From: Vallitalea guaymasensis
Lineage (GTDB): Bacteria; Bacillota; Clostridia; Lachnospirales; Vallitaleaceae
Reading direction: 5' to 3'
Length of the DNA: 64,000 nucleotides
Assembly: GCF_018141425.1 (NCBI RefSeq)
Contig: NZ_CP058561.1
Span: 3,162,001-3,226,000, forward strand
Every line of letters starts with the position of its first letter. Position 1 is the stretch's first letter. The notes under the pieces were generated by a model. The model made no database searches. It was not told the origin of the DNA and saw only the letters and a list, made by a program, of their open reading frames with translations. Shown piece by piece: positions 1 to 15,510 of the stretch. The translations under genes and the position numbers were made by a program.

Positions 1-1386
1 TTTTCCAGGCATGTTATCAGCTTTGGAGAGCAAATTAACCCTATTCAAAGGCTTTTTATAGCAAGTAACTTTATGGGGACGTAGGAAATTGTAATAAGCT
101 ACCCATAAAGACAAGGCATAATTAGCACCATCATAATTATCGTAACCATTGGTTATACGATAAGAAGCTTTAAAAGTTCGGTTAAGGCGTTCTACAATCT
201 GCTTGAATGGGCGAAACTTTTTAGAAACTTCGTCATCATTGGAAAGACCTATTACCTGAGTGATATCAAACTTAAGAGGATCTTTCTCACGGAGAGCGAA
301 TTGTTGAGAAGCTAAAGGATAAGCGCTATAGCCATCAGCAATAAAACGAAATTTATCAGGAAGCTTTTTAAGATTGCGAAAAGCCATACGCATAGCAAGG
401 ATACAAGGACCTACGCCACGATTATCAGATACCCTGTAACCAAGGATAGAACGAGAAACAGCATCCATAATGAACCAAACATAACCTTTGATACCACGGA
501 CTTTGATATAAGTTTCATCAGCTATCATAGTAGAGAAATGGTTGTAATTATAATTATCAACAAAAGGTTTAATAAGAGTAGCAGCGGAATGAGCATAGTT
601 AGCAACCATAGTATGAGAGATATCAATACAATGAATGTCTTTTAAAGCCTGAGCAGTTTTTCTTAAAGATAGTCCAAGGTTTACATGATAAGACAAACAA
701 AGTCCCATGATATAAGCACTTTTACTACGGAATTTAAAAGAAGAAGCATTTTTAGGAAGAGAATCCAAATCCATAGCAAAAAAATCTACAGAGAATTCAC
801 GGTAGATATAGCGTAGTTTATACTTATAGCGATCAGAATGTTTTACGTCATTAGGTAATTTACTCACATTGGATATATAATAAGAGCACTTATTATTAAT
901 GCACTTATGTACATTAAAATGTTTCCTATCTTTTTTTGCAACAAGAGAATGATTGCAATAAGGGCATTTAAGAACAAGAGGAGAAGAAACTTGTTCACCC
1001 GTAACAAAAGTTTTTTGGCAAACTTTACACTTAAATTGGCCTTTACCACCATTATTATCGTAAATATATTGCTGTGGAGCACCACATAAAGGGCAAATGG
1101 TATCGTTAGGAACATTACGGATTTTACCTTTTTGAGTCCTAACAGGTTTTAAAGGTTTACCATAACGAAGAAGATAGTATTCAGTCAAAAATTGCCAATC
1201 TTGTTTAACAAAGCGTTTAATAATAGGTAGTTTATCGGTCTTGAATTTCTGATACTTAGGTGAATGAGCATCATCAAAAGCCCATTGCTTAAGAGGAATA
1301 AATTTAGAGATGAAAAGAAGTAACCAAGAAATTTGTTGATTTTGGTATTGAATTATATTAAGTAAATAAGTTATAATTGAAGGCAT
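1..1386 (-). CDS. DDE transposase, 5' part (3' end outside window)
   Basis: The minus strand stays open for 462 codons from an ATG at 1386 down to base 1 with no stop, so the gene continues off the left edge. The start has a good ribosome site (AAAGGATG, about 1394-1401). Near residues 120-180 there are two CxxC-type zinc-ribbon pairs (CPLC with CKVC, then CPYC with a later Cys pair). They are followed by a DDE nuclease domain with motifs IADETYIKVRG (Asp290) and IADGYSAY (Asp351) and a likely catalytic Glu near 399 in QIVERLNR. The layout resembles IS6/IS240-type and related DDE transposases, but I cannot assign the IS family and did not find both terminal repeats. Shorter open frames inside this span are shadows of it. 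Confidence 0.85.
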   Translation of the reverse strand, partial: MPSIITYLLNIIQYQNQQISWLLLFISKFIPLKQWAFDDAHSPKYQKFKTDKLPIIKRFVKQDWQFLTEYYLLRYGKPLKPVRTQKGKIRNVPNDTICPLCGAPQQYIYDNNGGKGQFKCKVCQKTFVTGEQVSSPLVLKCPYCNHSLVAKKDRKHFNVHKCINNKCSYYISNVSKLPNDVKHSDRYKYKLRYIYREFSVDFFAMDLDSLPKNASSFKFRSKSAYIMGLCLSYHVNLGLSLRKTAQALKDIHCIDISHTMVANYAHSAATLIKPFVDNYNYNHFSTMIADETYIKVRGIKGYVWFIMDAVSRSILGYRVSDNRGVGPCILAMRMAFRNLKKLPDKFRFIADGYSAYPLASQQFALREKDPLKFDITQVIGLSNDDEVSKKFRPFKQIVERLNRTFKASYRITNGYDNYDGANYALSLWVAYYNFLRPHKVTCYKKPLNRVNLLSKADNMPGK

Positions 1387-1561: not shown

Positions 1562-2974
1562 ATGAAAAATATATTAATGATTATTTGTGACCAATTAAGT
1601 GCTACTGCACTTAAAGCATATGGCAATGATTATGTTAAGGCGCCGAACATTGATAGTTTATCTGATAATGGTGTTACATTTGAGAATGCTTATACATCCT
1701 GTCCTTTATGCCAACCTGCAAGGGCATCTTTTTGGAGTTCTAAATATCCACATCAAACGAAGGTTCTTAGTAATTTACCTGATCAAGGGTTTGATACATT
1801 CTCTACAGAGATTGAAACACTAGGAGATCTATTCAGTAAAAATGGTTATGATTGTGTACATATAGGTAAAAGACATGACTATGGAGCTTTGCGAGGTTTT
1901 AAAATAATGGATTATGAGCAGATAAAGAGTGAAAGAGATAATCCTGCTATAACGGTTAATTACGAGACATTTTACGATGAAGATACAACTAGAAAAATGA
2001 TTCATTATCTAAAAGAAGAGGCTTCTGATAATCCATTTTTAGCAGTTGCAGATTTGCAAAATCCACATAACATATGTTCATATATTGGTGAAAACGAATT
2101 AGGACATAAGGACTTTGGTATTAATGAAGATGAGTTGCCTCAGTTACCAGATAATTATAATTTTGATGATGCACTTAATCGTCCAGAATTTATACAATAT
2201 ATGTGCTGTAGTCATAGACGTCAGAGCCAGACAATTCATTGGGGAGAAGATGATTTTAGACACTATCTATATGCCTATTACCATTACATCGGTGTTGTGG
2301 ATAAACAGATAGGTAAGATACTGAAAGCTCTAGAAGAATCAGGAAAGAAAGATGACACTATGATAGTATTGTTTGCAGATCATGGTGAAGGAATGGCATC
2401 TCACCGTTTGGTTACAAAGTATGGTGCTTTCTATGAAGAAACTAATAGGGTTCCTCTTATTTTTTCAGGGAATAATGTAAAGGGAAATAGAAAGGTTGAT
2501 GGATTGGTTTCACTTCTTGATATATATCCAACACTAGCTGATTATGCAGGCATAACAACTTATAAGAAGGAAGAGGGTATAAGTCAATATAAACAGATTA
2601 TCGGAGAGAGTGATACTGCAGATAACGAATATGTAAGTGCTCAATGGTATGATGAATATGATGGTTACATAGTTCCAGGTAGGATGTACCTTGATAAGGA
2701 TTATAAATATACGGTATATCGAGAAGATAACAGCGAAGAGTTGTTTGATATGAAAAATGATAGATTAGAAAATATAAATCTAGCTGTGAAATCAGAATAT
2801 AAACATATTCTAGAACAATATAGGGATAAGCTTAAGAATCACATAGAGAAGACTAATGATAATTTCTTTAGCCTTAAGAGTGAATACGATAAGAAATATA
2901 GACAGCATAAGCCTGGTATGGAAAATCACACTGGACCTAATGCTGTACTGGATTATTCGGAAAGATTAAAATAG
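1562..2974 (+). CDS. Cys-type sulfatase (S1 family)
   Basis: 470-residue sulfatase of the alkaline-phosphatase superfamily. The N-terminus (MIICDQL) carries the first metal-binding Asp. The maturation motif is Cys50-Gln-Pro-Ala-Arg54, so activation needs conversion of Cys50 to formylglycine, normally by an anaerobic sulfatase-maturating radical SAM enzyme. A second metal motif (LFADHGEGMASH) lies near residue 270. No signal peptide is visible, so it probably acts in the cytoplasm on imported sulfated sugars. The start has GGAG eight bases upstream. It stands alone between the transposase and the radical SAM cluster but fits the glycosaminoglycan locus at 9-24 kb, from which it may have been separated. 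The exact substrate cannot be read from sequence. Confidence 0.9.
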   Translation: MKNILMIICDQLSATALKAYGNDYVKAPNIDSLSDNGVTFENAYTSCPLCQPARASFWSSKYPHQTKVLSNLPDQGFDTFSTEIETLGDLFSKNGYDCVHIGKRHDYGALRGFKIMDYEQIKSERDNPAITVNYETFYDEDTTRKMIHYLKEEASDNPFLAVADLQNPHNICSYIGENELGHKDFGINEDELPQLPDNYNFDDALNRPEFIQYMCCSHRRQSQTIHWGEDDFRHYLYAYYHYIGVVDKQIGKILKALEESGKKDDTMIVLFADHGEGMASHRLVTKYGAFYEETNRVPLIFSGNNVKGNRKVDGLVSLLDIYPTLADYAGITTYKKEEGISQYKQIIGESDTADNEYVSAQWYDEYDGYIVPGRMYLDKDYKYTVYREDNSEELFDMKNDRLENINLAVKSEYKHILEQYRDKLKNHIEKTNDNFFSLKSEYDKKYRQHKPGMENHTGPNAVLDYSERLK

Positions 2975-3161
2975 AAAAAATAGGTTGGTTTTTAAATAAT
3001 AGCTTAGGTGTAAATATTAATATTTTTATACAATACTTGGATATCATTATAAACGCAACTAAATAAGGTAAGAAGTTAAGTTTTTGAGCAAGATAATTTT
3101 ATTGATATATAAAGTCATAAAATGGGGCAAAGATGAACTTATATATTTTTTTTAAATTAAT

Positions 3162-3207
3162 AAAAAACTAAGCTAAAGTTATCATAAAACATTAATAGCT
3201 TTAGCTT
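3162..3207 (-). terminator. Terminator of the radical SAM/exporter operon
   Basis: Inverted repeat AAGCTAAAG (3170-3178) and CTTTAGCTT (3199-3207), followed in minus-strand transcripts by a run of six U (3167-3162). It sits just past the end of the exporter gene. Nothing else is recognised between 2975 and 3254. Confidence 0.65.
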
Positions 3208-3254
3208 GATTTATAATAAGTATAAAATATATTATATGTTAACTAAAGTTTGTA

Positions 3255-4463
3255 TTAAAGCCTAAACTTTTTATATAAAGATAAAAGTATACAAAATAAA
3301 ATTAATGATATACTTCCAATAATAGTAAACTGTTGAGCTATAGTAATATAATCATAAATAATAATTGAAAATCCAATTCCTATTAAATTAAAGATTTTTA
3401 CAATAGCATCAGCAAAAGCAGTTCCTCTGCCCCTTGTCTCTATATCAATTTCTTTCTGGGATAAAGTTATCCAAGAAATCATTATTAGTGCTCCAAAAGC
3501 TCCGTATAAAAATAATAAAACAAACGTTAAAAATACAGAATTTATTACTCCTAATAATATTACAAATATAATACTAAATAAAACTCCGATTTTTAAACCT
3601 TTCTTTTCGTTGATTTTTGTTGGTGTATAATATATTATTGCCTGACCGACTATAGTACCTATTAAAAAAATAGATTGTATTTGTCCTAATAATTGACCAC
3701 CGTTATTTAAATATTCTTTTACATACACCACGAGCTGTGGAAAAATAACCCCATCACACATTGTAACTAATCCGAAAAAAAATAAACTTGTTGCTAGAAT
3801 TCGATTATCTTTATATATTTTTATACCACATTGTAATTTTGTAATATAACTTTCTTTGGCATTAACTGATTTAGAACTATCATAAATATATTTTAATTCA
3901 TGTATGGATATAATTATAAATATACAAATTAAAAAAGTTAGTAAATCAAAAACGAACAAATATCTAAACAAAATTATTTCGCTTACAAATCCGGCTATTA
4001 CCATACCTATAGCTCTTCCTAATTTATTAGTTAGTGAATAGATACTGTTTATTTTTATTAAATTGTCCTTATTATTAACCAATTCTGGCAAAATAACTAT
4101 TGAGCTCGTTCTGAAAAATAAACTTATAGTAGCTAAAATAAAATTTCCAATAAAATATAACCATGCATTCCCAGGAATAATTATAAGAAATAAAAGAATA
4201 ATAATGCTAACCAAATTAGACTTTATTAAAATATCTCTCTTATTACTATTATCCACTCTTACTCCAATAAAAGGTCCAAATATAACAGATGGAATAACAC
4301 CAGCTAAAAAAACTATTGCAGCATATTTACCTGATGAAGTAATATTATATGTCATAATTGACATTGCTATTTTTGTAAATGAGTCACCTAATCCTGATAA
4401 AGACGTTGCAATAATCCATCTTATAATAATACTATCAAATTTTCTCACTTTTACACCTGCCAC
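3255..4463 (-). CDS. MFS exporter of the peptide cluster
   Basis: 402-residue membrane protein with about 10-12 hydrophobic segments, resembling MFS exporters of the EntS/macrolide-efflux type. A loop after the second or third segment carries GVRVDNSNKRDILIKSN, similar to the family's D-x(4-5)-R/K motif. It is the last gene of the minus-strand operon and overlaps the end of the radical SAM gene upstream, so the two are probably translationally coupled. The GTG at 4463 opens the frame, but a GTG at 4448 sits better behind AGGTG, so the start is uncertain by five codons. In this setting it probably exports the modified peptide or gives self-protection; that role is inferred from position only. 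The gene is very AT-rich. Confidence 0.8.
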   Translation of the reverse strand: MAGVKVRKFDSIIIRWIIATSLSGLGDSFTKIAMSIMTYNITSSGKYAAIVFLAGVIPSVIFGPFIGVRVDNSNKRDILIKSNLVSIIILLFLIIIPGNAWLYFIGNFILATISLFFRTSSIVILPELVNNKDNLIKINSIYSLTNKLGRAIGMVIAGFVSEIILFRYLFVFDLLTFLICIFIIISIHELKYIYDSSKSVNAKESYITKLQCGIKIYKDNRILATSLFFFGLVTMCDGVIFPQLVVYVKEYLNNGGQLLGQIQSIFLIGTIVGQAIIYYTPTKINEKKGLKIGVLFSIIFVILLGVINSVFLTFVLLFLYGAFGALIMISWITLSQKEIDIETRGRGTAFADAIVKIFNLIGIGFSIIIYDYITIAQQFTIIGSISLILFCILLSLYKKFRL

Positions 4464-5541
4464 TTTTTAATAATTTAAAGTAACTTATACATTCTTCATA
4501 TTCAACATTAGTTTTCCCATCTCTACCAATAGAAGTGCAAGGATTGCATCTAGTATTTAATAATTCACATTCACTGCATGGAAAATAGTTATTGTAGTAT
4601 TTAAAAGAATTAACCTCGTTAGCAACAATATCTAATAGTTTAACCTTTAGTATTTCAAAGTCTATTTCAGCGAATTTTAAATGTTTAATTTCATTGAATA
4701 TATCTTTGTGATAAATTTTACACAAATTGAGTGTTGTATCACTATTAAGATATATTGTGTTTCTTTTGATGCCACATTCCCTAGATTTAAAAGGTAATGT
4801 TTTATTGTGTTTTTTTTCATAGTAAAGTCCACCAATGGGAGGTAAATGTCTAAGTATCAAATTAAATCCTTTATCATCCCATTTTACTCTGTTTTTATTG
4901 TATAAATTTATTAAAATATCTGTAATCTCAATCTCTCTCTCAAAGCTTAACTTTAATTCACTATCAATATCCTTTCTACCTGACATAAAATATCTAAATA
5001 TTTGTAAACGATCTATTTCATTATTAGCTAATTCATCAACTAATTTTTCAATTTCATTTACATTCATTTTTGTTAATACTGTATTAATATAAATTTGAAA
5101 GTTACATTTAGGATTATTTTTTCTTAAATAAATTAGATATTTGATTGTTTTTAATTGATTATTAAGAACATCTTTTCCTCTAATCTCTTTTACAATTATT
5201 GGATTTAAACAATCAATACTTATAGTAATAAATTGTAGATTTTTATTTTCTAATACATTTATAAATTTCTTATCAAACAAATTATCTCCAGTGGAAATAA
5301 AACCAAATGGTTTATTTATATTATCACAAAAATCAAAAAAATTATTTGATATAGTTGGTTCGCCTCCACTTAGTGTTATACCATTTATATATTCATTATT
5401 ATTTATTATGCTAATAAATTTTTTTAAATCTTCTTTATTAATTTCTTGAGACCAATTTTTCCTAGATTTTTTATTGTAACAGAATTTGCAATTCATTAAA
5501 CATTTAGCGGTCATTGGCCACTTTAAATAATATTTATTCAA
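4435..5541 (-). CDS. Radical SAM/SPASM-like protein, third enzyme of the cluster
   Basis: 368 residues. Cys14, Cys18 and Cys21 form the CxxxCxxC motif for the SAM-binding [4Fe-4S] cluster, and GGEP follows at 59-62. The C-terminus has a SPASM-like set of cysteines at 322, 325, 332, 335 and 351, plus an earlier pair around CGIKRNTIYL and NLCKIYH, so it probably holds auxiliary Fe-S clusters. It is clearly more diverged than the two paralogues upstream. The start is TTG at 5541, supported by AAGGAGG about seven bases away; the nearby ATG is out of frame and stops at once. It probably performs a different step on the same peptide, but its reaction is unknown. Confidence 0.85.
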   Translation of the reverse strand: MNKYYLKWPMTAKCLMNCKFCYNKKSRKNWSQEINKEDLKKFISIINNNEYINGITLSGGEPTISNNFFDFCDNINKPFGFISTGDNLFDKKFINVLENKNLQFITISIDCLNPIIVKEIRGKDVLNNQLKTIKYLIYLRKNNPKCNFQIYINTVLTKMNVNEIEKLVDELANNEIDRLQIFRYFMSGRKDIDSELKLSFEREIEITDILINLYNKNRVKWDDKGFNLILRHLPPIGGLYYEKKHNKTLPFKSRECGIKRNTIYLNSDTTLNLCKIYHKDIFNEIKHLKFAEIDFEILKVKLLDIVANEVNSFKYYNNYFPCSECELLNTRCNPCTSIGRDGKTNVEYEECISYFKLLKSGRCKSEKI

Positions 5542-5608
5542 AACATTCCTCCTTAGATAAAATATATAACGTTATAAAAATATCGAATGCAATTATTAGT
5601 AATATATT

Positions 5609-6700
5609 CTATAGTAAATGTTTCCAACAATTAGGGTCTTCTCCTAAGTAATCACCATTTACATAATATGCTCTTGCCCTGCATCCTGCACATCTATCCT
5701 TTTCACTACAATCGCCACAATTGCCTTTTAGATTTCTATCTAATAAGTTATGAACAATAGAATTGTTTATAAATGCCTTTTCAATCTCTTCTTCAGTTTT
5801 ATCTAATATATTAAACATTGGTAAATTTAGTAATGCACAAGGAGTCATATCTCCATTTGAATTTATATTAAAAGATATAGTACCAGCTGGACAAGTATCA
5901 ATTTCTATAACACCATCTTCTTTTTTTCTGTAACGCTTTCTTGATAACCATTTCAAAGGTTCAATGCTTGAGACATCAATCCTATTACCATATTTATGAT
6001 AAAGCTCATTTAGATTATCGCTAAATTTTCTTAGTGTTTTGGCATCCATCCATAACTCAGGCTTTTCTGAGGCTATACCAGATGGAAATACTGAAGAGAA
6101 ACTAACTCTGTTTGCACCTAAAGATATTGCAAAAATAGTCATATCTTCCATTTCTTCTATATTATCTGGTAATATTGTTGATCGTATTGCTACTTGAAAT
6201 GAAGATTCTTTAACTTCTGTTAATCTTTTCAAAGCAGATATTGCATATTCATACGCTTTATCATTATGTCTAAAACTATTATGTTTTGTTGGACTTAATG
6301 TATCGAGGCTAATTGAAAATGTAACTCTTTCAAATTTTAAAGTCTTAATATAATCAATAATATCATTGTCAATAAACGTTCCATTTGACATCAAAGTTAT
6401 ATGAGTAACATTTAATTCTCTAACTGATTTTAGAACTTTTTTGAACTGTTTGTGCATAAAAGTTTCTCCGCCAGAAAGAGTAATTTCTTTAAATGCTGGA
6501 CTATACTTCCTTGTAAATTTGACAATTTTAATAATTTGATCTAATGGTAGATCGATTTTATCATCAAATGCACCTCTACAGTGTTCACATGACATATTAC
6601 AATTCCCAGTTATTTCAATATGTATAGAAGAAAATTCAAAATTATAAATTGCTTTATCCGTTTCTACTTCGATAAATTTATAACTATTTTCACGATTCAT
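5609..6700 (-). CDS. Radical SAM/SPASM peptide maturase-like protein, copy 2
   Basis: 363 residues from the ATG at 6700. A TTG at 6712 also opens the frame, but the ATG matches the start of the upstream paralogue (both reach FIEVETD after 8-9 residues). Radical SAM cysteines are 34, 38 and 41 (CNMSCEHC). The usual GGEP motif reads GGET at 77-80. A full seven-cysteine SPASM domain follows (Cys270, 288, 328, 331, 337, 340, 358) with the tail CRARAYYVNGDYLGEDPNCW. Such proteins carry two auxiliary Fe-S clusters and typically modify ribosomal peptides. It lies directly downstream of the small peptide gene, past a terminator-like hairpin. By eye roughly two thirds of residues match the copy at 7022-8110, so this is a tandem duplication. 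Confidence 0.88.
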   Translation of the reverse strand: MNRENSYKFIEVETDKAIYNFEFSSIHIEITGNCNMSCEHCRGAFDDKIDLPLDQIIKIVKFTRKYSPAFKEITLSGGETFMHKQFKKVLKSVRELNVTHITLMSNGTFIDNDIIDYIKTLKFERVTFSISLDTLSPTKHNSFRHNDKAYEYAISALKRLTEVKESSFQVAIRSTILPDNIEEMEDMTIFAISLGANRVSFSSVFPSGIASEKPELWMDAKTLRKFSDNLNELYHKYGNRIDVSSIEPLKWLSRKRYRKKEDGVIEIDTCPAGTISFNINSNGDMTPCALLNLPMFNILDKTEEEIEKAFINNSIVHNLLDRNLKGNCGDCSEKDRCAGCRARAYYVNGDYLGEDPNCWKHLL

Positions 6701-6730
6701 TTTATCAACCAACTTTCTATAGTTATTATT

Positions 6731-6772
6731 AAAAATCTCATAGGAATATACAAAAGTGTATTCCTATGAGAT
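6731..6772 (-). terminator. Hairpin between peptide gene and radical SAM copy 2
   Basis: Two 17-base arms (6735-6751 and 6756-6772) pair with one G-U wobble around an AAAA loop, followed by U residues in the minus-strand transcript. It starts five bases after the peptide stop codon. A partial terminator or mRNA-stabilising hairpin here would let the short peptide transcript outnumber the enzyme transcript, as in many RiPP operons. Confidence 0.7.
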
Positions 6773-6776
6773 AATT

Positions 6777-6878
6777 TTATGAACATCTATCGCAATAATC
6801 TTGTCCGGCTTTTATTCTGATTCTAGGCTTCTCAGTATTATTGCTTTTTGAATTTTGTTTGATTTCTCTTTTTTTCAC
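6777..6878 (-). CDS. Candidate RiPP precursor peptide (33 residues)
   Basis: Short gene with a GTG start at 6878, an excellent ribosome site (GGAGGTG at 6884-6890, seven bases away) and a TAA stop at 6777. The product has a charged, Lys/Asn-rich N-terminal part (KKREIKQNSKSNN) that could be the leader. The C-terminal part ends AGQDYCDRCS, with Tyr28, Cys29 and Cys32 flanked by Asp27 and Asp30. It lies between two paralogous radical SAM/SPASM genes, with its own promoter candidate upstream and a hairpin after the stop. Tyr, Asp and Cys are plausible sites for radical-mediated crosslinks or thioethers, but the modification is unknown. I cannot match it to a named family. Size, ribosome site and context make it a gene rather than chance. 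Confidence 0.75.
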   Translation of the reverse strand: MKKREIKQNSKSNNTEKPRIRIKAGQDYCDRCS

Positions 6879-6900
6879 AATTTCACCTCCATTTAAATAT

Positions 6901-6916
6901 GTATTAAATTTAATAC
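6901..6916. promoter_or_regulatory. Perfect 16-bp palindrome in the peptide-gene leader
   Basis: GTATTAAATTTAATAC is a perfect palindrome lying between the proposed -10 box and the ribosome site of the peptide gene. It is a good candidate operator for a repressor, although no regulator gene is in the cluster. In such AT-rich DNA some palindromes arise by chance. Confidence 0.45.
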
Positions 6917-6945
6917 TTTATTTAATTAATTAGATCTACATAATA

Positions 6946-6974
6946 ACATTATCACATTATAATATTTTTTTCAA
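6946..6974 (-). promoter_or_regulatory. Promoter candidate for the peptide gene
   Basis: On the minus strand TTGAAA (6974-6969) and TAATGT (6951-6946) are separated by exactly 17 bases, upstream of the peptide ribosome site. This suggests the peptide is transcribed separately from the radical SAM gene upstream. Confidence 0.5.
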
Positions 6975-7021
6975 CATATTTTTTATTGATTTGAATAATT
7001 GTTTGGTTGGATTATATATAT

Positions 7022-8110
7022 TTAATTTTTCCAACAATTTGGATCTTCTGCTAAATAATCTCCATTTACATAATGGGCTCTTGCTCTACATCCACCACAT
7101 CTATTCTTTTCATTGCAACTTCCACAACTCCCTTTTAAATTTCTGTCTAATAAATTATGAACAATAGAATTATGAATAAATGCTTTTTCGATTTCTTCTA
7201 TTGTTTTATTCAAGATATTAAACATTGGTAACCCTAATAGGGCGCAAGGAGTCATATCACCATTTGAATTTATATTAAAAGATAATGTTCCCGCTGCGCA
7301 ACCCTCAATGGTAACAACCCCTTCTTCTTTATTGTAATGATCACCATTAGATATCCATTTTAGTACTTCATTACTTGAAACATCTATTACATTACAATAT
7401 TTATTGTTCAATCTATGTAAATTAGTGCTGAATTCCTTTAATTTTTTTACATCCATCCACAATTCGGGTTTTTCTAAAGCTTTACCAGATGGTAATACTG
7501 ATGAAAAACTTACTCTATCAACACCTAATTCAATTCCAAACTTCACCATATCTTCCATTTCATTTATGTTGCCTGGCAAAATTGTAGACCTTATTGAAAC
7601 AAAAAAAGATGGTTCTTTATACTCAGCTAATTTCTTTAAAGCAGATATTGCATATTCATAAGCTTTATTGTGATGTCTAAATGCATTGTGCTTTTTTGCA
7701 TCTAACGAGTCTAAACTTATTGAGAATATTACTCTTTCAAAATTTAAAGATTTAATATAATCAATAATGTTACTATTTAAAAATGATCCATTTGTAGTTA
7801 AAGTAAGATTTGGTATTTTTAAATCACTTACGCATTTAAGAACTTCTCTAAAATTTTTATGCATAAAAGGTTCTCCGCCCGAAAGCATAACTTCTTTTAA
7901 ATCTGAACTATAAATTTTTGCAAATTTAATTACCTTGTAAATTTGTTCTACGGGTAAATCAACTCTTTTTTCAAACGCTCCTCTGCAATGTTCGCAAAAC
8001 ATATTACATTTTCCTGTTATTTCAAATTGTATATCAGAAAATCCAAAATTATATATGGCGTTATCAGTCTCAACTTCAATAAATTTGCAAATATTTTCGT
8101 TATTTTTCAT
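7022..8110 (-). CDS. Radical SAM/SPASM peptide maturase-like protein, copy 1
   Basis: 362 residues with ATG at 8110 behind GGAGG. The radical SAM motif is Cys35-x3-Cys39-x2-Cys42 (CNMFCEHC), followed by an intact GGEP at 78-81. The SPASM domain has all seven cysteines (271, 289, 329, 332, 338, 341, 359) in the classic order CxnGx4C, CxxC, CxxC, C. Proteins with this architecture include PqqE-like, mycofactocin-type and sactipeptide/ranthipeptide maturases, and also anaerobic sulfatase-maturating enzymes. The adjacent 33-residue peptide gene favours a peptide maturase. It is the first gene of the minus-strand cluster; its duplicate is at 5609-6700. Confidence 0.88.
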   Translation of the reverse strand: MKNNENICKFIEVETDNAIYNFGFSDIQFEITGKCNMFCEHCRGAFEKRVDLPVEQIYKVIKFAKIYSSDLKEVMLSGGEPFMHKNFREVLKCVSDLKIPNLTLTTNGSFLNSNIIDYIKSLNFERVIFSISLDSLDAKKHNAFRHHNKAYEYAISALKKLAEYKEPSFFVSIRSTILPGNINEMEDMVKFGIELGVDRVSFSSVLPSGKALEKPELWMDVKKLKEFSTNLHRLNNKYCNVIDVSSNEVLKWISNGDHYNKEEGVVTIEGCAAGTLSFNINSNGDMTPCALLGLPMFNILNKTIEEIEKAFIHNSIVHNLLDRNLKGSCGSCNEKNRCGGCRARAHYVNGDYLAEDPNCWKN

Positions 8111-8600
8111 TTTTATCCTCCAATTTATTTTTTATTCATTTGGGTCAAACATTATATGGCGAAATATTGTATTAATCTTTTGGTGAATTGTATTATTATA
8201 ATATAAAGATATTTTAAATATTACTATAATTAATGAAATTAGTAAATTATTCAAACGGCTTAACTTAAGATATATAATTAATATTTGAAAATAGATGTTA
8301 ATTAATTAATAAGTAATTATGTGAAAGCTTTATTTATAAACTTATATATATTTAATATGCTTAATAAGTATATTAAATTTGTTATAATTATAATAATTAA
8401 TATATTTTATATTTTTACATAATTAAACACAAATGTCAAGTTTATTTGACAAAAAAATATATATTGTGAAATGAAATAAAAAAATTGTTATAATATAAAT
8501 ATTAATGAATGATTAATTTTATACAATCTATCTTTGTATAATGTAGAATAATACAATTTATTTTAATTGATTAGTTAATAATATTTATATAAAAAATGGA
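8111..8600. other. AT-rich intergenic region between divergent transcripts
   Basis: No convincing gene on either strand. It must hold the promoter of the radical SAM operon; a TATAAT (about 8146-8151, minus strand) is present but its -35 is weak. An inverted repeat GTCAA/TTTGAC-like sequence lies near 8436-8450. Nothing else is recognised. Confidence 0.4.
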
Positions 8601-8795
8601 TAATTTTCTATATAAAGGTAATAAAATCACTGAAAAGTAATGAAAAATCAATCAAAATATAAGAAATAGTAGATAGTTGAGAAATGCACATTTTTAAAAG
8701 TGTATATAAAAAGGGTGATTATAATTAATTTTTTGTAATAAAAGTATATAGGTTGTAAATTGATGATTTATTTATTGTTAAAAGTTATGTATAAT
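8601..8795 (+). promoter_or_regulatory. Duplicated regulatory region, copy A (lyase promoter)
   Basis: This stretch matches 15315-15510 block by block: TAATTTTCTAT at 8601; an AAAATCA...AAGTAAT block near 8623; TAGTTGAGAAATGCACAT at 8674-8691; then a block from GTTGTAAATTGATGATTT (8752) to a -10 box TATAAT at 8790-8795. Distances between blocks differ by at most one base between the copies. There is no good -35 at 17 bp, which suits an activator-dependent promoter. The activator is probably the AraC/YesN protein at 12967-15159. Confidence 0.75.
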
Positions 8796-8989
8796 CCATG
8801 CGTATAGGAGCAAATATTAATCCAAATAAACAAAACATAGGAGGGTTTTTAGATAATCACTGTAAAATGATGATTATTTTACTTGTAATGATTATTGTTC
8901 ATAGTGATTGTCTTAAAATATGTATTCTGCAACAATATTTCTAACCAATTGTTTCAGATATGCAAACTAATCATAGGAGGTATTAAAGA
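8796..8989 (+). promoter_or_regulatory. Structured 5' leader of the lyase gene
   Basis: About 190 bases separate the -10 box from the lyase ATG. Inside lie nested inverted repeats: AATCACT near 8856 with AGTGATT near 8900, and GTAAAAT with ATTTTAC near 8862-8882. A GGAGGG near 8840 precedes the hairpin and a second site, AGGAGG, serves the true start. The importer operon leader lacks this insert. I do not recognise a known riboswitch. Confidence 0.35.
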
Positions 8990-11900
8990 ATGAGAATACT
9001 GAAAAAAGGGGTACTATTATTGCTGATATTAAGTATGTGTATAATGCCCATTAACCCAATTCATGCAACGAATTCACAGAATAGTCCTAAATACGAGACA
9101 GAGGCAAAAAAACTATATGATTTTGGGTTGGTAAAAGGCAGCTCTGAAGTAAATCAGAAGTTGGATTTAGAATCACCTGTGACGAAAGAAGAGGCAATAA
9201 TATTAGCATTAAGATTAAGTAACAATGAGCAAAAAGTAGAGGATTTGACAGAGGATGATATAGTTGGGCTACTAGGTAGATACACAGATGGTAATCTTGT
9301 GTCACAGTGGGCAAAGGAATATGTTGCATATGCTATCAAAAAAGAAATTATAGTTGGAAATGAGATTGACCCTAAGAAAAATATAGATGGTGAAAGCTTT
9401 GCAATGATGCTGTTAAAGCTATTAGGGTATGAGAATAATGAAGATATAAAAGCGTTGGAATTATTAGGTGAAAAAAATGGTTGGACAACAGAACAGATTG
9501 CTGAATTCGATAAACCATTAACCAGAGATGATCTTGCTGGAATGATGTACAAATCATTGAATCTAAGAAATGCCAGTGGTACTTCTATTATTACTAATGT
9601 TTTAGAAAGAAAAGCTGAAGAAATAGATACTAAGTTATACACATTTGAATCAGGAATACCAGATGATATTGAATCAGATAATGAATCAGAGATTTCACTA
9701 AGTGAAAAACATTTTAAGGGTGGTTATAGATCCCTGCAATGGAATTACTCCAAAGAATCTAGTTTAGTGTTCTCAACACCTATAGGTTTTGAATTGTTTG
9801 ATGAGAATTCTGGTTCCAATAAATTAGATACATTTGCTTTTTGGGTATACAATGAAAAGCCGGTCCATGATAAGTTAATAGTAGAATTTGGAAGAGGAGA
9901 TAAGGTTGACTGTTACTTCACATTCGGTCTTGATTTTACTGGATGGCGTACTGCATGGGTATCTTATGAGAGAGATATGCAGGGTGAACCACGTGAAGAC
10001 ATGGATACAATGAGAATTAAAGCTCCGTCTAATGTAGAAGCAGGAACACTATACTTTGACCAAATCGTTTTAGCTAATCCTGTAGATTCAAGACATCAAA
10101 ATAGAGATTTCCAAGTACCTTTTGTGAATGTGGAAGCTGATAATATGGCTAATAAACACTGGGTGTCTCTATACAAATTTTATGATTTAAAGAGTAAAGA
10201 CAAGCTCCCAGAAAAAGTTACTACTGAAGATATTGAAGATTTTAACCTGATATCACAAAGATTATATGATAATCTGTTCATCAATAAAAATGTTGATGAA
10301 AAAGCTATGGATGCTATTAGAAAGCAATTCAATACTTATAACATAGTAAGAAATGAAGGTACAATAACTGGTAATTCAGTAGACCTACCATTTGTAAAAC
10401 AAATCTATCCACAAGAGATTATGGATGCAGTATATATTGACTTAAGACATACCAATGTAAGAAAACAATATACAGATATAATGTATAACATTGCCAATAT
10501 GTATCATTCCACTGACAATGCTGAATATAAAAAAGAGCTGAATCAAATCTTCATTGATATGACAGAACATATGCTTGATCAAGGATGGGAAGCAGGAAGC
10601 ATACTAGGTACAGTACACCACATCGGCTACAATGTGAGAGGATTCTATAATTCTGTTTTTCTTATGAGAGAACAGTTAAAAGAAGCAGGACTACTAGATA
10701 GAGTACAAAAATCCATATACTGGTTTACTGGAATGGGAAGAATCTATGATTACGAGGATAAAGAACCAGGGAATGTAGACATATTGAATACAACTATACA
10801 AGGTATGTTAATAAGTATATTAATAAAGGAGGATACTCCTGATAAAGTACGAGATTTTGATGGTTTCTCTGATTGGATGAATAGATGTATGAAAACTACG
10901 CCTGGTCTTAGTGGTGGATTCAAGGAAGATGGGTCAGGTTTCCATCATAGAAATGGATATCCAGGATATGCTAATCCTGCCTTTAATGGCTTGACTCCAG
11001 TTGTATATTACATGAGTGGAACTAAGTACAGATTAGAAGAACAAGCTCATGAGCTCCTTAAAAAAGTGATAATGGTGACAAGACTATACACTAATAAATA
11101 TCAATGGTTAGTCAGTCTTTCAGGACGTGGAGTTGATGGAACGTCTAAAATAACAGATAAACCTTTTGGATTCTTAGCTTTAGCAGGTACACCAGACGGC
11201 GAAGAAGAAGTAGACCCAGAGGCTGCTGCTGCATACTTACGTTTAACTAACCTTAAAAAACCAAGTAAAACAGCAAAAATGCTCCTTGATATGGGATATA
11301 CTCCAGAGGATAGTCCAAATGGAAACTGGACTATGAACTATTCTAATCTTGGACTACATAGAAGAGATGACTGGTTAGCAGGGGTTAGAGGTCATAGCAA
11401 ATATCTATGGGGTAATGAAACATACACTAATTCCAATCTATATGGACGATATATTGCTTATGGACAAGTTCAGATTATGAGTCAAGGTGACCCAATAAAC
11501 AATAAAGATAGTGGTTATAACCCTAATGGATATAACTGGAACCGTTGGCCTGGAACAACTACAATTCAATTACCAATAGATGAACTGAAATCAGATGTCC
11601 GTAATCTTGATGAATTTTCAGGATTTGAGGAAATGCTTATCTCTGATGAATCATATTCAGGAGCACTTAATATAGAAGGGGAAAACGGTATGTTCTCCAT
11701 GAAACTTCATGAACATCCTAAGTATGATGAGTCTCATAGAGCGAGGAAATCAGTCTTTTTCTTTGATGACAGAATAATATTATTAGGTTCAGATATAGAA
11801 AATGATAATGAAAAATATAAAACACAAACAATAATGTTCCAGAATTACTTAGCAAACAAAGATATGCCTATATGGGTTAACAGTAAAGATAGTGTCAAGG

Positions 11901-15314: not shown

Positions 15315-15510
15315 TAATTTTCTATTTTTTATTACCAAAATCATTAAAAAGTAATAGAAAAACGGTGAAAAGATAGCAAAATGTACATAGTTGAAAAATG
15401 CACATGATTAAACTATTAATATAAAAAGTCTCAAAATGAATGTCTCTTTGTACAAAAAGTAAATGAGTTGTAAATTGATGATTTATTTTTTATTCAAAAC
15501 TATGTATAAT
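15315..15510 (+). promoter_or_regulatory. Duplicated regulatory region, copy B (importer operon promoter)
   Basis: Second copy of the element at 8601-8795: TAATTTTCTAT at 15315, TAGTTGAAAAATGCACAT at 15388-15405, GTTGTAAATTGATGATTT from 15467 and -10 TATAAT at 15505-15510. The first-to-second block distance (73) is identical in both copies and the total length differs by one base. It drives the importer/hydrolase operon that starts 70 bases downstream. Confidence 0.75.

Follow-up and report, generated by a model that had tools for sequence, protein, structure and literature searches.

Radical S-adenosylmethionine (SAM) gene clusters for ribosomally synthesized and post-translationally modified peptides (RiPPs) are common as orphans, and a RiPP recognition element (RRE) or a PqqD-like protein that binds the leader is a common but not universal part of them. 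SPASM enzymes with short Cys-containing precursors often form thioether links, according to the available part of PMC8326336. In thuricin CD, as described in the available part of PMC12093266, two radical SAM enzymes form a tight complex and install thioethers on their precursors. Here we analysed 64,000 nucleotides of Vallitalea guaymasensis (NZ_CP058561.1, positions 3,162,001 to 3,226,000; the window, in whose coordinates features are given) that carry five genes on the minus strand in the order radical SAM/SPASM enzyme (copy 1), 33-residue peptide, radical SAM/SPASM enzyme (copy 2), another radical SAM protein (the third) and, last, a major facilitator superfamily (MFS) exporter. A first-pass annotation had described this order and interpreted it as an undescribed radical SAM RiPP cluster. 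Both the order and the coordinates were confirmed, and a radical SAM RiPP cluster is the best reading, favoured by those of the proposed refutation tests that could be run. We consider it probable that the locus is a horizontally acquired, self-contained radical SAM RiPP cassette, with the Cys-x-x-Cys tail at the C-terminus of the peptide as its core.

The locus resembles thuricin CD (TrnC/TrnD) in having two radical SAM enzymes in one system (PMC12093266, available part), but thuricin CD has two precursors, whereas here one precursor is accompanied by a third radical SAM protein, and the two SPASM enzymes are 69% identical twins with no N-terminal room for an RRE. Like 'Cluster 115' of a radical SAM network, it combines several radical SAM enzymes with one Cys-containing precursor; it differs from that cluster, to which a peptidase, a hydrolase, at least three conserved cysteines and an Asp-Cys motif are attributed in the available part of PMC9062424. 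In the literature searched, which left most subscription journals outside its coverage, no description of the precursor or of the twin arrangement was found. The word 'undescribed' thus stands solely on absence from the libraries and literature searched, and the locus resembles a natural-product pathway type that is already known, in a variant that has no name yet and has a precursor type that the libraries searched do not cover.

The five genes are one insert that is absent from the same site in the congener G003. There, a sulfatase block and a polysaccharide lyase block (82% and 79% identical in DNA to those of the window) lie 540 nt apart, versus 6026 nt in the window, and upstream of the lyase the two sequences become homologous again at window position 8643. 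This comparison and the GC content delimit an AT-rich insertion roughly 5.7 kb long (2950..8640, borders approximate), with 26.0% GC for 3255-8110 versus 31.9% for the window minus the insert. The cassette genes are oriented against their neighbours, the sulfatase and the lyase, and no further gene-sized open reading frame (ORF) was recognised in the insert, antisense ORFs (135 aa at most) being outside the search. A search of 58 other relatives with copy 1 gave nothing at E ≤ 1e-40, and insertion is therefore favoured over a deletion in G003, itself possible. At E ≤ 1e-60 an alignment of the twins matched none of 391 further genomes from the order and none of 397 from the phylum, two samples that overlap. 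The cassette thus appears to have been acquired horizontally.

The peptide gene (6777..6878, minus strand) lies between the twins, as first described, and encodes MKKREIKQNSKSNNTEKPRIRIKAGQDYCDRCS, which ends in a Cys-x-x-Cys tail. It starts with GTG, 7 nt downstream of a GGAGG (6886-6890). Leaving aside the large genes and their internal starts, it is the sole minus-strand ORF of more than 25 aa in the insert with a Shine-Dalgarno-like site, and by the pattern used such a site precedes 24 of the 778 small ORFs of the window (18-70 aa, counted by stop). No Pfam or NCBIfam family matched the peptide at E ≤ 0.01. Two features expected of a radical SAM RiPP locus were found here: a short ORF with translation signals beside a maturase, and a maturase with the radical SAM motif and SPASM cysteines.

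Four nucleotides past the peptide stop lies a hairpin whose stem has 16-17 pairs and which is trailed by a U-run (6735..6772, minus strand). The region 6713-6790 folds at -24.9 kcal/mol versus -8.74 in shuffles (z -6.79), a value equalled by none of 200 shuffles. A pattern scan listed this hairpin only as a plus-strand site, with 1 found versus 0.9 expected by chance. The hairpin is likely an attenuating terminator, which would halt most transcripts behind the peptide gene and so give more precursor than enzyme.

The twins are copy 1 (7022..8110, 362 aa) and copy 2 (5609..6712, the start probably being ATG 6700 rather than TTG 6712), both on the minus strand. They share 248 of 360 residues and both retain CxxxCxxC and the seven SPASM cysteines. 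Copy 1 matches PF04055 with 74.7 bits and passes the SPASM cut-off (PF13186, 23.5 versus 21.5 bits), and copy 2 falls narrowly below the latter (19.5). Nei-Gojobori estimates of nonsynonymous and synonymous divergence over 362 codons were dN 0.196 and dS 1.26 (dN/dS about 0.15), indicating that both twins have been held by selection since the duplication.

Comparison with curated families, a check suggested at the outset, left all three enzymes unassigned. They matched 74, 73 and 42 NCBIfam models in all, and among the 25 best for each none reached its cut-off. A PapB ranthipeptide maturase did not fit: its model gave 88 of 340 bits, and the peptide tail is without Cys-x3-Asp, which we take to be the core motif of PapB ranthipeptides. 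An AlphaFold2 model of copy 1 (mean confidence, pLDDT, 87.7; 17-row alignment) was compared with the PDB. Its ten best PDB matches were chains of four RiPP maturases, SkfB, SuiB, PqqE and CteB (TMq 0.62-0.73), followed by BlsE, anSMEcpe and viperin. From these four maturases copy 1 differs in its sequence (18-22% identity), in the precursors that they act on and in reaching no curated cut-off. No AhbD or NirJ structure was seen among the 50 PDB matches listed, so that the fold alone cannot exclude that group. The radical SAM core of copy 1 starts near residue 30, and only a beta-hairpin, not an RRE-sized domain, precedes the barrel in the model.

The third protein (4435..5541, minus strand) was only partly as first described. 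Its radical SAM identity held (PF04055, 53.8 bits), and its radical SAM cysteines and several C-terminal, SPASM-like cysteines align with those of the other enzymes, C256, C274, C322 and C325 being invariant, but Pfam SPASM did not match it. Its model had a mean pLDDT of 66.9, with the SPASM part mostly below 50, and no relative was found at E ≤ 1e-15 in 40 other genomes. A viperin-like identity was rejected (68.6 bits versus a cut-off of 180). The MFS gene (3255..4463, minus strand, with GTG 4448 as a possible start) overlaps that of the third enzyme, and its assignment was borne out by PF07690 (102.9 bits).

More distant genomes provided relatives of the twins. Among 395 genomes of the class of G792, one matched at E ≤ 1e-42 (G1117, 3.5e-51); three did so at E ≤ 1e-45 among 288 genomes of the order of G1117 (G1117, G1302 and G993), and two at E ≤ 1e-42 among 78 genomes of the family of G1302 (G1302 and G993). 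The nearest relatives, in two genomes, are 32-33% identical to the twins. In a 20-row tree, the rows of which were picked by a cysteine filter that dropped the L033 proteins, L011 and L015, the twins grouped with the enzymes of G1117 and G1302 (L017, L020; moderate support, 88/79), apart from a NirJ2 clade (99/96). The absence of any conserved peptide beside homologous enzymes had been named as a finding that would speak against a RiPP cluster; instead, in these nearest relatives a small, conserved peptide is encoded immediately ahead of the enzyme. This peptide is Lys-rich and ends in CCTCGSFK; in G1117 and G1302 its length is 25 and 28 residues and its distance from the enzyme gene downstream 41 and 45 nt, respectively.

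Over their last 20 codons the two sister-clade peptides are identical at 15 of 20 residues, including all eight of CCTCGSFK, with proportions of nonsynonymous and synonymous differences of pN 0.136 and pS 0.452, values that cover these 20 C-terminal codons and 6.5 changes only and leave out the N-terminal 5 and 8 codons. The enzymes behind them are identical at 182 of 352 residues (pN 0.311), and the next two genes have pN 0.339 and 0.386. Because the peptide is more conserved than its enzyme, it is, judging from these alignments, very probably real, with the Cys tail the best-kept part seen. The surrounding genes are syntenic between L022:4498-7882 and L018:263-3559, comprising the peptide, a SPASM gene, and Amidohydro_2, APH-type and GNAT genes.

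Further candidate clusters were seen. Within the class to which the window belongs, five of 254 other sampled genomes yielded a match at E ≤ 1e-42, the best being G1522 (L033). The region L033:2977-8523 encodes a 26-residue peptide ending in VACIPCMSLE, a PqqD-like protein (179 aa, two PqqD-like stretches, 58.5 bits and so short of the cut-off, 100), a pair of adjoining SPASM genes, and one gene each of the MFS-like and GNAT types; the locus also holds a third protein with a SPASM end. In G993 (L023:4040-9562), a 50-residue peptide ending in CASAECGW (Cys-x4-Cys) precedes a SPASM gene, and downstream lie genes for a 1102-aa B12-binding radical SAM protein and a weak radical SAM match (26.8 bits, cut-off 29.5). 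Behind the peptide, a hairpin with a U-run is also present in L018 (z -2.91) and in L023 (z -2.24).

Several observations weigh against reading the locus as a RiPP cassette with a cysteine-tail core. No homologue of the window peptide was found in its own genome (E ≤ 10), in plasmids or in phages, apart from one chance phage hit (E 2), so that conservation of its tail cannot be shown. By our filter, a CxxC peptide lies beside the enzyme in only one of the five class matches. ORFs with a CxxC tail beside radical SAM genes were not significantly enriched under a strict test (2 of 8 versus 4 of 106, p 0.056), nor when the window was taken out (1 of 6 versus 3 of 82, p 0.25); the filter missed the L018 peptide, the ribosome site of which is AAGGGG, and left the L033 peptide uncounted, a PqqD-like gene intervening. 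The fold behind the peptide has no U-run in L022 (z -2.12) and is missing in L033 (z -0.48). Judged by length, fold and family matches, with no RRE model run and antisense ORFs unsearched, the cassette showed neither an RRE nor a PqqD-like gene. Finally, the comparison of the sister-clade peptides is short, and the link to that clade rests on 32-33% identity with a support value below the program's starred threshold.

If the RiPP reading is correct, the 33-residue peptide would be the precursor, with its basic first ~23 residues as leader and the C-terminal AGQDYCDRCS as core. The twin SPASM enzymes, products of a duplication that were both kept functional, would act on this tail, most likely by Cys-based cross-linking (thioether or similar) of its two cysteines. 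They may take one each or work as a heterodimer, and by analogy with the thuricin CD enzymes they could act as a complex. The third radical SAM enzyme would carry out a further step, such that one precursor might receive several modifications, and the MFS protein would export the product. As the first-pass annotation had noted, no peptidase gene was recognised in the cassette, and hence the leader would be cut by a host protease or the peptide would stay whole. A more far-reaching version, which we regard as doubtful, is that the locus belongs to a distinct RiPP class of short, basic, CxxC-tailed precursors and RRE-less, heme-synthase-like SPASM enzymes that horizontal transfer has scattered among distant bacteria; in this organism the duplicated maturase would have become an obligate heterodimer that makes two different cross-links on one tail.

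Even if the pathway is RiPP-derived, its product need not be a secreted peptide. The YCDRC tail could instead be excised to give a small molecule that serves as a redox cofactor or binds metal, comparable to pyrroloquinoline quinone (PQQ) or mycofactocin. In favour of this, sactipeptide models give the twins lower scores than the NirJ2, AhbD and GeoRSP models do, the best structural matches include PqqE, and the short tail has in Tyr-Cys-Asp-Arg-Cys a potential metal ligand. We nevertheless consider this alternative improbable: the cassette has an MFS exporter but no recognisable gene for a dehydrogenase, an oxidase or a peptidase, and copy 1 remains far under the cut-offs of the PQQ (PqqE; 73.5 of 381 bits) and mycofactocin (72.6 of 265 bits) models.

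The hairpin raises another explanation, namely that the 33-codon ORF is an attenuation leader in which stalling at Cys codons controls the hairpin and the downstream genes, with the true substrate encoded elsewhere. Leader peptides do have this layout, a short ORF with a terminator-like hairpin behind it, and two Cys codons lie near the end of the ORF. This is quite unlikely in view of the position of the ORF in mid-operon, after copy 1, of the amino acids of the sister-clade peptide, which are kept better than those of the enzymes, and of L022, which is without a U-run hairpin at that spot.

It is slightly less likely still that the twins belong to the heme pathway (NirJ2/AhbD-like) or act on some other small molecule, the peptide being incidental. 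NirJ2 is the top NCBIfam model of both twins (171 bits for copy 1 and 153 for copy 2), followed for copy 1 by AhbD (136) and GeoRSP (135), but the respective cut-offs are 500, 500 and 400, and as a heme enzyme of the NirJ2/AhbD type copy 1 was rejected. Of the control loci, L035 (621 bits) and L034 (542) pass as NirJ2 and L037 (413) does not. The twins also stand outside the NirJ2 clade of the tree and differ from these families in their gene neighbours; siroheme-decarboxylase-like genes adjoin the enzyme in L035 and L037, unlike in the window, where none was seen among the neighbours searched. Least probable is that the adjacent sulfatase (1562-2974) is matured by the SPASM enzymes: the maturases of anaerobic sulfatases do belong to the SPASM group and on our reading this sulfatase carries a Cys-x-Pro-x-Arg motif, but sulfatase_rSAM is absent from the 25 best models of either twin and the sulfatase stands without the cassette in G003, both of which speak against a sulfatase-maturating assignment, one that had been named as refuting.

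If the RiPP reading holds, the peptide represents a new precursor type beyond the curated libraries used. The five-gene cassette is small enough to be moved whole into a laboratory host, and the tight unit, the constrained twins and the recurrent Cys-x-x-Cys tails make it a clean test case. Twins flanking one peptide offer a clear setting in which to ask why two nearly equal radical enzymes are kept, and also how such enzymes find a peptide without an RRE.

Mobile elements and other genomes were searched for related loci. Viral contigs contained no homologue of copy 1, of a three-member alignment or of the L033 enzyme, and plasmids no homologue of copy 1 at 1e-30. At 1e-12, copy 2 matched 56 plasmid records, all below 60% identity (25.5% for the first listed), and the gene set of the cassette was absent among the annotated neighbours in plasmid regions H3 and H29. 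A contig scan of genomes, which used only two short patterns, found 10 loci with at best 30% identity. Seven of these (L003-L009) are placed by the tree within the NirJ2 clade or next to it, L010 is of the ACGX type (580 bits, cut-off 400), and the matches to L011 and L012 are partial. Identities of 25-27% were seen with two phage records, one of which, L015, has a longer N-terminus and other neighbours. In this unannotated 'Bacteriophage sp.' record (L015:130-6306), two ORFs that by eye resemble helix-turn-helix regulators accompany the SPASM protein with the extended N-terminus and an MFS-like gene, and it looks like a bacterial RiPP locus.

Possible transcription signals flank the cassette. 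Upstream of copy 1 lies a promoter-like site on the minus strand (8411..8439; TTGACA, 17 nt, AAAAAT preceded by TG; 10 of 12 matches), of a kind no commoner in the window than expected by chance (49 found versus 55.8 in shuffles). The terminator first placed after the MFS gene (3162..3207, minus strand) is weak: a stem and a T-run are visible by eye, but the fold z is only -1.29 and the pattern scan does not list it. No Rfam element was found in 2900-9000. At the left edge of the window, a transposase-like ORF (1-1386, minus strand, running off the edge; DDE_Tnp_IS240, 35.3 bits) adjoins the sulfatase and may be related to rearrangement of the region. On the other side, window positions 8643-8778 and 15379-15488 both match one and the same segment of the congener, located ahead of its lyase (L043:13751-13886); the polysaccharide genes may share a regulatory element here.

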